Shown one piece after another: positions 36,957 to 42,767 of a stretch of DNA of 64,000 nt (its first letter is position 1; each line of letters starts with the position of its first letter). The notes under the pieces were generated by a model that searched no databases, was not told the DNA's origin, and was given only the letters and a program-made list of their open reading frames with translations. The translations under genes were made by a program, and so were the position numbers. The stretch is from Acidisarcina sp. GTDB taxonomy: Bacteria; Acidobacteriota; Terriglobia; Terriglobales; Acidobacteriaceae. The stretch is taken from NCBI GenBank assembly GCA_035539175.1, contig DATLIY010000008.1, positions 1-64,000 on the forward strand. The letters are read 5' to 3'.

Positions 36957-38540
36957 ATGAAAGACAACGCCGTTTCCCGTAGAGCAGCAATGAAAACACT
37001 CGGCGGTGCAGCTTTAGGTTCTGCACTGCTTCCTCACCTTCAAGCACAGTCAAGGCAATCCAATCCGGTATCGACAGCTCCCCTGAAAGAAAAAGCGCAG
37101 GGGCATTCATCACGCAGGCCAAGTATTCTGTGGATCACCGGTGAGGGCGTCCCAGTGACGGCCTTGAGTTGTTATGGAAGCCAACTAATAAAAACTCCGA
37201 ATATCGACCGGATTGCGAATGAAGGAATGCGTTTTGAAAATAGTTTTACGACAAACGCATTATGTGCTCCTAGCCGGGCTACCTTACTGACTGGAACCTA
37301 CAATCATTTGAATGGAATGGTTGCAAACCCGGCAGACACAACTGGCGGAGAAACATCCCCAACCTTCGATGCTTCGCAACAAACATTTCCTAAATTGCTA
37401 AAGCGTCTGGGCTACCAGACGGGCACCGTAGGCAAGTGGCACCTTCCCGCCAATCCGGGAGAGGCTGGATTTGATTATTTCGTCTTCAAGAACGGGGCGG
37501 GTGGTCCCTATTATGAGCCGAGCGGCTATCTGCAAAACCCAAGCCTCGGCAGTACGGTGATCGAGAAGAGAGTTTATCCCGGATATGAAACAGACAATGT
37601 TACAGACTTAGCCATAAAAGGCATACAGCAGTTCACCGAGCCCTTCATGATGATGGTGCAATACTTCAACGATCATCGGCCATTCGATCCGCCCCATCAG
37701 TACGAGCACCTATACGACAACACAAGAATTCCCGAGCCGGGAACTTTTTGGGATGACTATTCCAGTCGCTCAGCAGCCGCTCGCGAAGCACGCATGCGAA
37801 TTGAGAACATGCCAGACTTCCACCCTCCGGCAGACCTGACAGACCGTCAACGCAAACAGTGGAATTATCAAAAGTTCATGGGCCACTTTTTAGCAACACT
37901 GCGCGCTCAGGATGACAATGTAGGGCGGTTATTAGACTTCCTGGATAAATCGGGACTCGCGGAAAACACCATCGTTGTTTATACCTGTGACCATGGGTTC
38001 TTTCTGGGCGAGCATGGATGGTTCGATAAACGCTTCATGTATGAACCGGCCATAAGGGTACCGTGGCTCATTCGCTATCCAGGAGTAGTAAAAGCGGGAA
38101 GCGTACAAAAGGAATGGGTAGTCAACATCGACAACGCTCCGACAATACTCGACCTCGCAGGCGCTCCGGTTCCTGAAGACATGCAAGGCAGGAGCCTGGT
38201 TCCCATATTCAAGGGAAACACGCCCTCGGATTGGCGTACATCTTTCTACTATCACTATTACGAATTTGCTCCAAACCACTGGGTCTTGCCGCATTACGGC
38301 ATCCGCACCGATCAATACAAGTTGATCAACTACTACACGGTGAATGAGTGGGAGCTATTCGATCTAAAGAAGGATCCGGATGAAATGGAGAACCTGTTTG
38401 AATGGGAGGGTTACAAAGTAAATCCGGCTTATGAGCGAGTTGCCAATGATCTGGTAAGTCAACTCAAGGAGCTTCGAGAAACCTACAAAGATACAACAGG
38501 AAGGCCTGTAAAAATGTGGTCGACAGCTTCTTATGACTGA
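36957..38540 (+). CDS. Tat-exported S1 family sulfatase
   Basis: A formylglycine-dependent sulfatase of 527 residues. The Tat signal SRRAAMKTLGGAALGSALLP is at the N-terminus. The CxPSR motif is CAPSRATLLTG with C103 as the residue converted to formylglycine. Other active-site motifs are VGKWHLPA, NDHRPFDPPH and CDHGFFLGEHGWFDK. Sulfatases usually carry two acidic metal ligands in the first strand (DD or ED); here the strand reads LWITGEGVPVT, so one acidic residue appears to be Gly. The gene looks more AT-rich than its neighbours, a possible sign of transfer. Targets are probably sulfated glycans; the substrate is not predictable. Confidence 0.88.
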   Translation: MKDNAVSRRAAMKTLGGAALGSALLPHLQAQSRQSNPVSTAPLKEKAQGHSSRRPSILWITGEGVPVTALSCYGSQLIKTPNIDRIANEGMRFENSFTTNALCAPSRATLLTGTYNHLNGMVANPADTTGGETSPTFDASQQTFPKLLKRLGYQTGTVGKWHLPANPGEAGFDYFVFKNGAGGPYYEPSGYLQNPSLGSTVIEKRVYPGYETDNVTDLAIKGIQQFTEPFMMMVQYFNDHRPFDPPHQYEHLYDNTRIPEPGTFWDDYSSRSAAAREARMRIENMPDFHPPADLTDRQRKQWNYQKFMGHFLATLRAQDDNVGRLLDFLDKSGLAENTIVVYTCDHGFFLGEHGWFDKRFMYEPAIRVPWLIRYPGVVKAGSVQKEWVVNIDNAPTILDLAGAPVPEDMQGRSLVPIFKGNTPSDWRTSFYYHYYEFAPNHWVLPHYGIRTDQYKLINYYTVNEWELFDLKKDPDEMENLFEWEGYKVNPAYERVANDLVSQLKELRETYKDTTGRPVKMWSTASYD

Positions 38541-39364: not shown

Positions 39365-41764
39365 ATGGCTTCTGAAGCTATGCACATAGACCGCATGCTT
39401 GAGGGAACTGCCCAGGCAGTCTCTTCGCCGGTCGGTTTGAAATCCTGCGGCCTTCCGCTGCCCACCAGGATTGCTTTTGTTGGTAACTACCTTCCCAGGC
39501 AGTGCGGCATTGCCACATTCACCACTGATCTGTGTACGGCGCTCGGAGCGGAGTATGGCAGCCAACGCCTTTTCGCGATTCCCGTCAATGATCCGGAATC
39601 GCACTATGAGTATCCGGAACAGGTGCGTCTGGAACTAGCACAGGAAGACCTGAGCTCATACGAGCGAGCCGCCGAGTTTCTCAATTTCAATGGCAATGAT
39701 CTTGTTTGTCTGCAACATGAGTACGGTATCTATGGCGGCCCGGCAGGCCAGCACATCCTGTCACTCCTGCGAAAGCTGAAGATGCCATTGGTGACGACAT
39801 TGCACACGGTTCTTCGCGATCCGGATGTGAATCAACGCGCCGTGCTTGAAGAGATTGCGGGGCTCTCTGATCGGCTGGTGGTCATGACTGAACTGGCTGC
39901 CCAACTGCTTCGCGATGTGTATGCGGTCCCGAGTGGAAAGATCGACATCATTCCCCATGGAGTACCGGATCTTCCGTTCATGGATCCGAACTATTTCAAA
40001 GACAAGTTCGACACCGAAGGAAAATCCGTCCTGCTTACGTTCGGCCTGCTATCTCCGAACAAGGGTATTGAAAACGTGATTCGTGCGCTACCTACGATTC
40101 TGGCGAAACACTCGAACGTGGTCTACATCGTCACTGGCGTGACGCATCCCCATATCCGGCGACGCGAAGGCGAGCGCTATCGAGAACAGCTTTTAGCACT
40201 GGCCAAAGACCTTGGCGTCTCCGATCACCTGATTCTTAATAACCGCTTTGTGAGTACCGAAGAGTTAATTGAGCACATTGGTGCAGCGGACATTTACATC
40301 ACGCCATATCTGCAGGAGGCGCAAGTCGTTTCCGGCACGCTCGCCATCGCCCTGGGAGCAGGAAAGGCAATCATCTCAACGCCATACTGGCATGCCAAGG
40401 AGCTGCTCGCCGAGAAGCGCGGTCTGATTGTTCCCTTTGCAAACCCTGACGCGATCGCTGAAGCGGTCACCCATCTGCTGGAGAATGAAGCCGAGCGGCA
40501 CGCCATGCGGAAGCGCGCCTATCTGCACTCCCGTGGGACGACATGGCAAAAAACGGCCCAGGCCTACATGGAGAGCTTTCAGCGGGCTCGTTTCGAGCGC
40601 TCACTACAGCCCAGACCTGCCCAGCAGGATGGTGCAGGCACCGACCCGGTGGATTGCCTGCCAGTGCTGAACAGCAGCCATATGATCAACATGACCGACG
40701 ATACCGGCATGTTGCAGCATTCAATCTTCTCGGTGCCTAATACGCGCGAGGGATATACAACCGATGACAACGCACGCGCGCTCATTGTTTCGACTTTACT
40801 GGATGAAGACCCGACGTATATTGGACGGCTAGAGCATCAGAATCTTTCCCAGCGCTACCTGACATTCCTATGGCTTGCGTTTAACGACGATACCGGAAGG
40901 TTCAGAAACTTTCTAAGCTACGATCGCAAATGGCTGGAGGATGTGGGATCAGATGACAGCCATGGCCGCGCATTGTGGTCGTTGGGCGAGGTGCTGGGAC
41001 ACTCAAGAAATGCGGGATTGAGAGGCGCTGCGGGGAGGCTCTTTGAAGCTGCTGTGCCTGCAACCCTCACATTCACAAGTCCGCGCGCATGGGCATATTG
41101 CATATTGGGGATGCAGGCCTATCTGGATTGGTTCCCGGGAGATAGAGTTATCCAGAACATTCGCAATGCACTCGCCAATCGCCTGCTGGATATTTATGAA
41201 CGCAGCCATTCCGAAACATGGAAGTGGTTCGAGAAGAGCCTATCCTACGGCAACGCCAGGTTGTCGCAGGCCCTCATTCTGGCGGGCTGGAGAAGTGACA
41301 ACCAGAGAATGATCGAAGCGGGCACGGACTCGCTCAAGTGGCTCGTCGCTGAGCAGCACCGAAATGACAGAGACATATTTGTACCGATCGGATCCAACGG
41401 ATTCTTCATAGAAGGAAACGAAAAGGCCCGTTTTGACCAGCAGCCTGTTGAAGCGTGTGCAACCATTTCAGCATGTCTTGAGGTCTACAGGCTGACCGAA
41501 GAACCACAATGGTTTGAAGAGGCCCAGAAGGTTTTTCGCTGGTTCCTCGGCAAGAACGATCTGCGGGTGCCGCTCTACGATGCAACGACGGGCGGATGCA
41601 GAGACGGGCTTCACCCCGATCGCGTGAATGAAAATCAGGGAGCCGAATCCACACTTTCTTTTTTGATGGCCCTGCTCGACATGCAGGCAGCCAAAGTAGC
41701 AGGGATAGACCAACTTCTTCCTGAAATGAGCATCTCTTTTGAACCCAATTATCCTTCCAGCTAA
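39365..41764 (+). CDS. GT4 glycosyltransferase fused to an (alpha/alpha)6-barrel domain
   Basis: A 799-residue cytoplasmic protein. Residues 30-410 form a GT-B glycosyltransferase of family GT4: RIAFVGNYLPRQCGIATFTTDL, IIPHGVPD, LLTFGLLSPNKGIENVI, and YLQEAQVVSGTLAIALGAGKAIISTPYWHAKELL with the donor-binding Glu region. Residues 425-790 are helical and resemble six-hairpin glycosidase-like folds (MLQHSIFSVPNTREGYTTDDNARALIV, WKWFEKSLSYGNARLSQALILAGW, ENQGAESTLSFLMALLDM). The 3' end overlaps the GH130 gene by 26 bases. Such a pair suggests a route for making or turning over mannose-containing oligosaccharides; donor and acceptor are unknown. Confidence 0.85.
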   Translation: MASEAMHIDRMLEGTAQAVSSPVGLKSCGLPLPTRIAFVGNYLPRQCGIATFTTDLCTALGAEYGSQRLFAIPVNDPESHYEYPEQVRLELAQEDLSSYERAAEFLNFNGNDLVCLQHEYGIYGGPAGQHILSLLRKLKMPLVTTLHTVLRDPDVNQRAVLEEIAGLSDRLVVMTELAAQLLRDVYAVPSGKIDIIPHGVPDLPFMDPNYFKDKFDTEGKSVLLTFGLLSPNKGIENVIRALPTILAKHSNVVYIVTGVTHPHIRRREGERYREQLLALAKDLGVSDHLILNNRFVSTEELIEHIGAADIYITPYLQEAQVVSGTLAIALGAGKAIISTPYWHAKELLAEKRGLIVPFANPDAIAEAVTHLLENEAERHAMRKRAYLHSRGTTWQKTAQAYMESFQRARFERSLQPRPAQQDGAGTDPVDCLPVLNSSHMINMTDDTGMLQHSIFSVPNTREGYTTDDNARALIVSTLLDEDPTYIGRLEHQNLSQRYLTFLWLAFNDDTGRFRNFLSYDRKWLEDVGSDDSHGRALWSLGEVLGHSRNAGLRGAAGRLFEAAVPATLTFTSPRAWAYCILGMQAYLDWFPGDRVIQNIRNALANRLLDIYERSHSETWKWFEKSLSYGNARLSQALILAGWRSDNQRMIEAGTDSLKWLVAEQHRNDRDIFVPIGSNGFFIEGNEKARFDQQPVEACATISACLEVYRLTEEPQWFEEAQKVFRWFLGKNDLRVPLYDATTGGCRDGLHPDRVNENQGAESTLSFLMALLDMQAAKVAGIDQLLPEMSISFEPNYPSS

Positions 41765-42767
41765 ATCTCTTGAACCTGTCACTCTGGAACAGGCCAATCC
41801 GAATGCGTGCATTGAGGCTCCCCTGCTTACGCGCTATCCGGGCAATCCGCTCCTCAGTCAGGAACATTGGCCCTACCGGATCAACAGTGTCTTCAATGCC
41901 GGAGCCGTGCGACTAGCGGACGGAGACACTTTACTGCTCTGCCGCGTAGAAGAGCGGACCGGCCTGTCGCATCTGTGCGCGGCACGATCGGCGAATGGAA
42001 TTGACAATTGGCGTATCGATTCGCAACCCACGTTTCCGGCGAATCCTCGCGATTACCCAGAAGAAATTTGGGGCATCGAAGATCCGCGGATCACGTATGT
42101 TCCGGAACTCGACCAATACGCCATCGCGTATACATCGTATGCGCGTGGAGGCCCGGGTGTTTCCCTGGCGCTCACGAGTGACTTCAAAAGCTTTGAGCGA
42201 TTCGGCGTAATCATGCCGCCGGAAGATAAAGACGCGGCACTGCTGCCCCGCAGGATCGACGGCCGCTGGGCCATGATTCATCGCCCCGTGACCGCGTTAG
42301 GCGCTCACATGTGGATGTCATATTCGCCGGATCTGCGTCATTGGGGAAGCCACAAGATCATGCTTGAGGCTCGGCGTGGTGGATGGTGGGATGCCAACAA
42401 GATAGGGCTGTGTTCTCCACCAATCGAAACAGACAAGGGATGGCTCGTGATTTATCACGGCGTACGGCAGACCGCTTCAGGGAGCATCTACCGGTTGGGA
42501 CTTGCGCTCTTCGATCTGGAGAGTCCGGACATTTGCCTGCAGCGGGGAGATTCCTGGGTTTTTGGCCCGGAGACCAGCTACGAACGCGTGGGAGATGTCA
42601 ACGATGTGGTGTTTCCGTGCGGGCAGACGATCGGCGTGGATGGGGACACAGTGAATGTCTATTACGGCGCAGCCGATTCCAGCATAGCTCTCGCCACCGG
42701 CAGCATACGGTCTATGCTGGCATGGCTGGATTCCAATTCGAGTCCTATAGAAAAGCGCGCAATTTAG
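41739..42767 (+). CDS. GH130 family beta-mannoside phosphorylase-like protein
   Basis: A five-bladed propeller enzyme of 342 residues. GH130 phosphorylases split beta-mannosides with phosphate to give mannose 1-phosphate. Supporting motifs are NSVFNAGAVRLADGDTLLLCRVEERTG, IWGIEDPRITYV with the catalytic Asp region, DKDAALLPRRIDGRWAMIHRPV with Lys/His/Arg residues that bind phosphate, and WLVIYHGVRQT. The start is TTG at 41739 inside the end of the GT4 gene, without a strong ribosome site, so coupled translation is likely. Linkage preference (beta-1,4 or beta-1,2) and whether it is a phosphorylase or hydrolase are open. Confidence 0.85.
   Translation: MNPIILPAKSLEPVTLEQANPNACIEAPLLTRYPGNPLLSQEHWPYRINSVFNAGAVRLADGDTLLLCRVEERTGLSHLCAARSANGIDNWRIDSQPTFPANPRDYPEEIWGIEDPRITYVPELDQYAIAYTSYARGGPGVSLALTSDFKSFERFGVIMPPEDKDAALLPRRIDGRWAMIHRPVTALGAHMWMSYSPDLRHWGSHKIMLEARRGGWWDANKIGLCSPPIETDKGWLVIYHGVRQTASGSIYRLGLALFDLESPDICLQRGDSWVFGPETSYERVGDVNDVVFPCGQTIGVDGDTVNVYYGAADSSIALATGSIRSMLAWLDSNSSPIEKRAI

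Follow-up and report, generated by a model that had tools for sequence, protein, structure and literature searches.

Mannose polymers are made and cut by several described systems, with which we compare a two-gene locus of Acidisarcina sp. that encodes a glycosyltransferase family 4 (GT4)-like protein fused to an (alpha/alpha)6 barrel, followed by a protein of glycoside hydrolase family 130 (GH130). In the available part of PMC9883506, the transferase ManT and the (alpha/alpha)6 endomannosidase MmpH are described as cooperating, with MmpH making primers for ManT. For the Leishmania mannogen/GT108 system, the available part of PMC8950772 describes an intracellular mannan that is made and phosphorolysed around mannose-1-phosphate. 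The nearest published idea is that on the Thermoanaerobacter cluster, in which a GT4 gene, a gene for a guanylyltransferase and an ABC transporter accompany the two GH130 genes Teth514_1788 and Teth514_1789, and which was read as a salvage route in the part of PMC4264767 available. No description of the fusion or the pair was found in the open literature (titles and abstracts, with subscription journals and databases like CAZy outside the search), and the combination of GH130, glycosyltransferase family 4 and operon returned no paper there.

The window, that is the whole stretch of DNA analysed, comprises 64,000 nucleotides (positions 1 to 64,000, forward strand, of contig DATLIY010000008.1 in assembly GCA_035539175.1). 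We propose that the two genes are a portable module for the turnover of an intracellular mannose-containing glycan, working as a self-contained cycle, a reading to which we give slightly less than an even chance.

The fusion gene and the overlapping GH130 gene

The features of the pair are as follows.

39365..41764 (stop included), plus strand: GT4-like glycosyltransferase/(alpha/alpha)6-barrel fusion, 799 residues, assigned by Pfam and folds
39455..40640, plus strand: GT-B domain, about residues 31-425, with H147 and K233 conserved and Q320-X7-(Y/I)328 instead of EX7E
40658..41761, plus strand: (alpha/alpha)6 barrel, residues 432-799, with invariant D467, D468, D531, E623, D691, D747 and E761
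41739..42767, plus strand: GH130 mannoside phosphorylase-like protein (type A), 342 residues, TTG start
41739..41764, plus strand: 26-base overlap of the fusion and GH130 frames, likely translational coupling

The sequence-only reading of this DNA had described GT4 and GH130 open reading frames (ORFs) with a 26-base overlap, and all three were confirmed. PF00534 (71.7 bits, cut-off 26.4), PF13439 (39.1 bits, cut-off 28.5) and PF13692 scored above cut-off in the fusion, and PF04041 (179.6 bits, cut-off 26) in the GH130 protein. The TTG at 41739 is the sole ATG, GTG or TTG start ahead of the conserved region of the GH130, and the identical TTG start at -26 is present in relatives L044 and L103; the overlap is real as far as the sequence tells. 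Among the 70 paired loci introduced below, the fusion stop and the GH130 start overlapped by four bases in 33 and by one base in 4, and were placed otherwise in 33. Translational coupling is thus widespread among the pairs and proves no special mechanism in the window. The highest 19-residue hydropathy means were 1.51 for the fusion and 0.89 for the GH130, with no signal or membrane segment. Both proteins look cytoplasmic, in agreement with the intracellular location suggested earlier.

Conservation and distribution of the pair

The pair was followed in 81 loci, consisting of the window and the best 80 of at least 589 relatives from a scan of species genomes. A GH130 gene on the same strand, starting within 1.5 kb of the fusion, was counted as paired. 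By this measure the GH130 was paired with the fusion in 70 of the 81 loci, in 67 of them within 200 bp of the stop of the fusion. Two types were distinguished, the window-like type A (59 loci) and type B of about 480 residues (11 loci). Distances of the glycosyltransferase (GT) and GH130 type A sequences were correlated (Mantel r 0.72, 55 pairs, 0 of 2000 permutations), also outside the clade of the window (r 0.63, 33 pairs, 0 of 2000 permutations). The nearest locus by GT distance shared its GH130 type in all 69 cases, and by these sequence comparisons types A and B track the phylogeny of the fusion itself. Conservation of the pair, on which the sequence-only reading had staked itself, is far beyond chance.

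According to the record labels, the 80 loci belong to Acidobacteriota, Chloroflexota, Deltaproteobacteria, Planctomycetota, Verrucomicrobiota, Ignavibacteriae and others, about a dozen phyla, and include two archaeal bins, which may be contaminated. A near-full-length fusion was present in 18 of 61 genomes (the window's own and 60 relatives), the copy of G058 being split over two contigs; one further genome had a fragment at a contig edge. All 13 of the 61 genomes with a strong type A GH130 also hold the fusion. Among the 18 fusion genomes, type B adjoins the fusion in four, and in G050 the contig ends. When 199 genomes of the phylum were sampled, 38 matched the fusion profile (E up to 1e-100), 37 over both halves and one as a fragment; the 38 represent 23 of 120 genera. 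Such a scattered spread in the phylum would suit a trait that is mobile or frequently lost.

Some loci carried more than one pair or GH130. Two complete fusion/GH130 pairs lie on different contigs of one relative (G016, L035 and L036), and L100 has the fusion, type A and type B in a row. An Ilyobacter plasmid (L131:4318-10044) has a four-gene row of a stand-alone GT4, a type-A-like GH130, a type B GH130 and the fusion.

Mannose genes beside the pair on plasmids

The barrel was found in 28 plasmid records, and the 27 covering at least 80% of its length were examined. The GH130 adjoins the fusion in 24 of the 27; in one (Deinococcus) another GT4 gene lies between. In 16 of those 24 loci the pair is contiguous with genes for one or more of mannose-6-phosphate isomerase, mannose-1-phosphate guanylyltransferase and phosphomannomutase, and the guanylyltransferase is next to the pair in ten. 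In five Sphingomonas/Sphingobium plasmids, a single row behind groEL holds the guanylyltransferase (ManC), the isomerase (ManA), the fusion, the GH130 and the phosphomannomutase; in five other plasmids, the guanylyltransferase, the fusion and the GH130 lie close to grpE and dnaK. Since several plasmids are near-identical, these loci amount to perhaps three independent lines of evidence and not sixteen. The mannose-activation genes in the plasmid modules point to GDP-mannose, and the pair is very probably linked to mannose metabolism of some kind. The window genome holds a mannose-1-phosphate guanylyltransferase-like gene (319 bits, under the bifunctional cut-off of the model). On plasmids L156, L158 and L159 the fusion frames are broken, and in L156 the GH130 is also gone.

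Around the 81 loci, the Pfam scan covered 148 of 217 candidate ORFs near the pair, leaving aside loci L043-L052, ORFs of at least 900 residues and a random remainder; the commonest Pfam family occurred in 5 of the 148 proteins. The proposal made for Thermoanaerobacter can be carried over to this locus, with the GH130 phosphorolysing imported beta-mannosides, mannose-1-phosphate being turned into GDP-mannose and the fused transferase spending GDP-mannose on an envelope glycan. We consider such salvage unlikely, because no transporter or secreted mannanase recurs by the pair in these loci and scanned proteins.

The plasmid modules also have neighbours of other kinds. The module adjoins groEL or grpE/dnaK on the sphingomonad plasmids L139, L150-L153, L132, L148, L149, L154 and L155, and in L132 genes for a universal stress protein, Dps and BON proteins are also beside it. 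These chaperone-side modules look as if they were part of a transferable stress-survival island. In L138, L136 and L156, genes for acetate kinase, phosphate acetyltransferase and the pentose-phosphate pathway or for cytochrome bd and Crp/Fnr regulators are near the module, for which a low-oxygen theme is possible. In the window, a sulfatase of the N-sulphoglucosamine sulphohydrolase type (PF16347, PF00884) lies at 36957-38540, 0.8 kb upstream of the pair on the same strand.

The transferase half

The transferase half matched the GT-B structures of MshA (3c4q, Z 36.4), PimA (2gej, Z 34.7) and ManT (7qsg, Z 32.1, root-mean-square deviation (rmsd) 2.9, 335 residues aligned). Its sequence matches in the Protein Data Bank (PDB) were PimA (E 8e-8) and MshA and, more weakly, PimB', both PimA and PimB' being GDP-mannose transferases. 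All fusion sequences aligned at these positions have H147 (79 of 79) and K233 (80 of 80). The PimA alignment spans K233, which corresponds to the pyrophosphate Lys (PimA Lys202), while H147 is presumably the catalytic His (PimA His118), matched by motif. Leu228 of the fusion (80 of 80) aligns with PimA Arg196; for ManT, just the Gly and Lys of that PimA site are given as conserved in the part of PMC9883506 available.

The EX7E motif (PimA Glu274 and Glu282) was not found. Its first position is Q320 in 81 of 81 sequences, and position 328 is Tyr in 65, Ile in 13, Phe in 2 and Trp in 1. The same part of PMC9883506 reports that ManT loses all activity when the second EX7E Glu is removed. By sequence, the transferase half is a GT4-like protein that fails the defining motif of its family, and with these glutamates lost the stereochemistry of the GT domain should not be assumed. 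In all 81 sequences the ribose-binding Glu is replaced by Tyr, Ile, Phe or Trp and the mannosyl-binding Glu by an invariant Gln, which would suit a GT-B domain that is no nucleotide-sugar transferase. Such a domain might take mannose-1-phosphate from the GH130, like an alpha-phosphorylase, or be a non-catalytic binding part, and beta- and alpha-mannosides would be interconverted without GDP-mannose. Several rhizobial modules, which have mannose-6-phosphate isomerase only and no guanylyltransferase, are consistent with this possibility. However, the putative catalytic His147 and the phosphate Lys233 are kept in all aligned sequences and a guanylyltransferase gene adjoins the pair in ten plasmid loci, so that we regard it as quite unlikely.

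The barrel half

Residues 432-799 were predicted by AlphaFold2 to fold as an (alpha/alpha)6 barrel (predicted local distance difference test 91.1, predicted template modelling score (pTM) 0.90), so the earlier label of six-hairpin barrel was right. In the full-length fusion model (pTM 0.54), the mutual orientation of the two domains is not reliably predicted. No Pfam model matched the barrel above cut-off, and NCBIfam gave chance-level matches only for 66 members. The top structural match was the uncharacterised YPO2471 (7tem, Z 39.2, rmsd 2.7, 335 aligned), which was also the sole credible sequence match (E 7.6e-14) and has the DD...GAEST motifs in common with the barrel. It was followed by 2-epimerases including RmCE (Z about 31), GH9 exo-enzymes (about 30), GH76 mannanases (24-29) and MmpH (7qsj, Z 25.4, rmsd 2.9, 285 aligned, model 1-347 to chain 15-332). 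The common fold by itself says nothing certain on the function of the barrel.

Unvarying residues were D467, D468, N469, R471 and D531 (81 of 81), D691, D747 and E761 (80 of 80) and E623 (79 of 79), and position 530 is always Glu or Asp. They sit at the ends of inner helices. Unvarying across 81 sequences from many phyla, they suggest a working enzyme and not a spent pocket; a C-terminal half without a pocket was what the sequence-only reading had named as speaking against itself. According to the available part of PMC9883506, MmpH requires Asp47, Asp50 and Glu262. By range counting alone, D467/D468 fall near Asp47/Asp50 and D691/E696 near Glu262, and the barrel acids coincide with those of GH9, GH76 and MmpH only in this rough manner, which singles out no catalytic pair. 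By analogy with MmpH, the trimming of the product suggested for the barrel is plausible. Membership of GH76 or GH9 was considered and rejected: the folds match (4v1r, Z 28.8; 6gdt, Z 30.3), but Pfam GH76 gave only E 0.078.

AGE-type 2-epimerases, such as mannobiose or cellobiose 2-epimerase, are functional partners of GH130 in mannan breakdown and have a catalytic His pair. A barrel of this type would fit the second-best folds (Z about 31), and in two Rhizobium plasmids the pair is followed by a gene for a separate AGE epimerase. That the two modules already encode a separate AGE protein (one was scanned, with a PF07221 match) also speaks against the barrel being one, and PF07221 was not matched at E up to 10 by 15 barrel sequences. 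The most conserved barrel residues are acids and not a His pair; among the histidines, H452 is present in 80 of 81, H533 in 74 of 81 and H750 in 75 of 80 sequences. The AGE assignment was therefore rejected as very improbable.

On Croceicoccus plasmids the barrel is present alone, so it can stand by itself. In L145 (2331-6386), an ORF of 1352 residues joins a sortilin-like repeat region, recognised by reading the sequence, to the barrel and is followed by a type B GH130; it is probably a product of recombination or assembly. L146 has a long upstream extension with no Pfam domain, probably from a spurious start choice.

The GH130 partner

In alignments, Glu114-Asp115 and Lys164 of the window GH130 correspond to Glu141-Asp142 and Lys199 of BT3780, and Lys199 is the beta-1,2 determinant in the part of PMC4599007 available. 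The candidate catalytic D115 (BT3780 Asp142) was present in 58 of 58 aligned type A sequences, as were the beta-1,2-type residues E114 and K164 (58 of 58 each), while the beta-1,4 enzymes TM1225 and RaMP2 carry Tyr-Asp and Arg at those positions. A simple beta-1,2 assignment is opposed by the best PDB score of the window GH130, which was to the beta-1,4 enzyme TM1225, by its longer beta-1,4-like loop and by the NCBIfam beta-1,2 equivalog cut-offs, which it missed (217.6 against 550 and 186.4 against 450 bits). Basic residues in type A, R182 (58 of 58), K221 (Lys or Arg in 56 of 57, with one X) and H240 (56 of 57), are putative phosphate-site residues as in phosphorylases. A BT3780-type hydrolase was ruled out because the position of BT3780 Glu227 holds R182 and there is no Glu pair. 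In the 11 type B loci, Glu-Asp, Lys, Arg and His are kept, and near K221 there is Gln in 7 and Lys in 4.

A second GH130 of the window genome (L033:8978-10153, G000:C7, minus strand) is close to the beta-1,2-mannosidases BT3780 and BACOVA_03624 (about 407 bits) and adjoins an apparent TonB-type receptor and TPR genes. It likely serves extracellular mannan use, apart from the pair. In L041, L123 and L124, type B is succeeded by yet another form of GH130, which scores about 265-273 bits to type A; on the L123 stretch no gene for the fusion was found.

Proposed cycle

In the turnover cycle that we propose, the GT-B half would lengthen a mannoside acceptor, with GDP-mannose as its most likely donor. 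The fused barrel would cut or rearrange the product and so set chain length or make new primers, as MmpH does for ManT. The co-translated GH130 would act with phosphate on beta-mannosyl ends and release or consume alpha-mannose-1-phosphate, which could return to GDP-mannose with no ATP spent on a new sugar phosphate. What we infer here is the donor, the activities of the enzymes, the product, the direction in which the GH130 works, and a part in reserve or stress.

Several observations weigh against this cycle. Canonical GT4 enzymes are retaining and make alpha-mannosides, whereas GH130 cleaves beta-mannosides and not alpha, so it does not follow that the GH130 breaks the product of the transferase. 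Either the atypical GT domain with its altered motif might make beta-mannosides, or the GH130 might cap or trim a linkage other than that of the GT domain. Both EX7E glutamates are substituted in every sequence, and the best folds of the barrel after 7tem are 2-epimerases and not MmpH. Among the loci examined, mannose genes stand beside the pair only on alphaproteobacterial plasmids, several of them near-identical, and none does in the window; no neighbour family recurs in the 81 loci. A close same-strand GH130 is absent from 11 of the 81 loci, including three whose contig ends within 103 bases, two with a same-strand type B about 3 kb off, one with a convergent type B and one (Edaphobacter L099) with a truncated fusion. 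All eight unpaired loci that do not simply end at a contig edge have a GH130 elsewhere in the genome.

The make-and-break mannose cycle of the sequence-only reading is thus upheld in part: in its link to mannose and GDP-mannose, through the plasmid operons, but less securely where the GH130 would break the transferase product (alpha against beta, EX7E lost). The storage glycan that it named is a surmise. More tentatively than the cycle, a mannose polymer of the cytosol, equivalent in bacteria to mannogen, might be common to many bacteria of soil and sediment and perhaps to some archaea. It would be made by an atypical GT-B protein with QX7(Y/I) for EX7E, recut by the fused barrel and recovered as mannose-1-phosphate by the GH130, and the set would move between lineages as a two-gene unit. 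Such tight linkage of the pair in about a dozen phyla implies that a mannose glycan or solute is widely shared, and no description of one was found in the open literature. GH130, usually read as a mannan-foraging family, gains a candidate biosynthetic or reserve role, and a barrel domain is defined for which Pfam and NCBIfam have no model. The pair offers a self-contained system for testing how bacteria make, cut and recycle mannans internally, possibly under stress.

Comparison with known systems

YPO2471 (7tem) has the closest fold to the barrel and shares its motifs, but it is stand-alone and annotated as exported. No paper on it was found in the open literature; its function would inform the barrel family.

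The window GH130 shares its family, the Glu-Asp pair, the Lys and basic phosphate-site residues with the beta-1,2-mannoside phosphorylases Teth514_1788/1789 and Lin0857 and the mannoside synthase Uhgb_MS. It differs from them in scoring best to TM1225, in its beta-1,4-like loop and in lying far under the beta-1,2 cut-offs.

In the GT84/GH94 beta-glucan system, GT84 elongates, a middle domain cyclises and the GH94 phosphorylase adjusts length (PMC10834661, in the part available). There a transferase, an (alpha/alpha)6 domain and a phosphorylase act on one glycan, and the window has parallels in its transferase, barrel and phosphorylase-like GH130. That the module follows this three-part logic is nevertheless improbable, since the GT84/GH94 system involves a membrane protein, other families and a beta-glucan, whereas the module shows no membrane helices by hydropathy, all of its families differ and no exporter gene recurs.

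In Leishmania mannogen metabolism, one GH130-like fold (GT108) does both jobs, whereas the module pairs a GT-B protein with a GH130 protein.

ManT and MmpH, of the mycobacterial 3-O-methylmannose polysaccharide, are two proteins where the fusion is one chain. Their system has methyltransferases where the module has a GH130 partner, and the 25 most frequent of 158 neighbour families (148 neighbour proteins) included no methyltransferase. EX7E is kept in ManT and lost in the fusion, and the linkage there is alpha-1,4. The likeness lies in a GT4 GDP-mannose transferase and an (alpha/alpha)6 endomannosidase acting on a mannose polymer, whose folds both halves of the fusion match. Neither ManT nor the fusion has the donor-pyrophosphate Arg of PimA among its conserved residues, and by range counting, acids stand near the first barrel helix as in MmpH.

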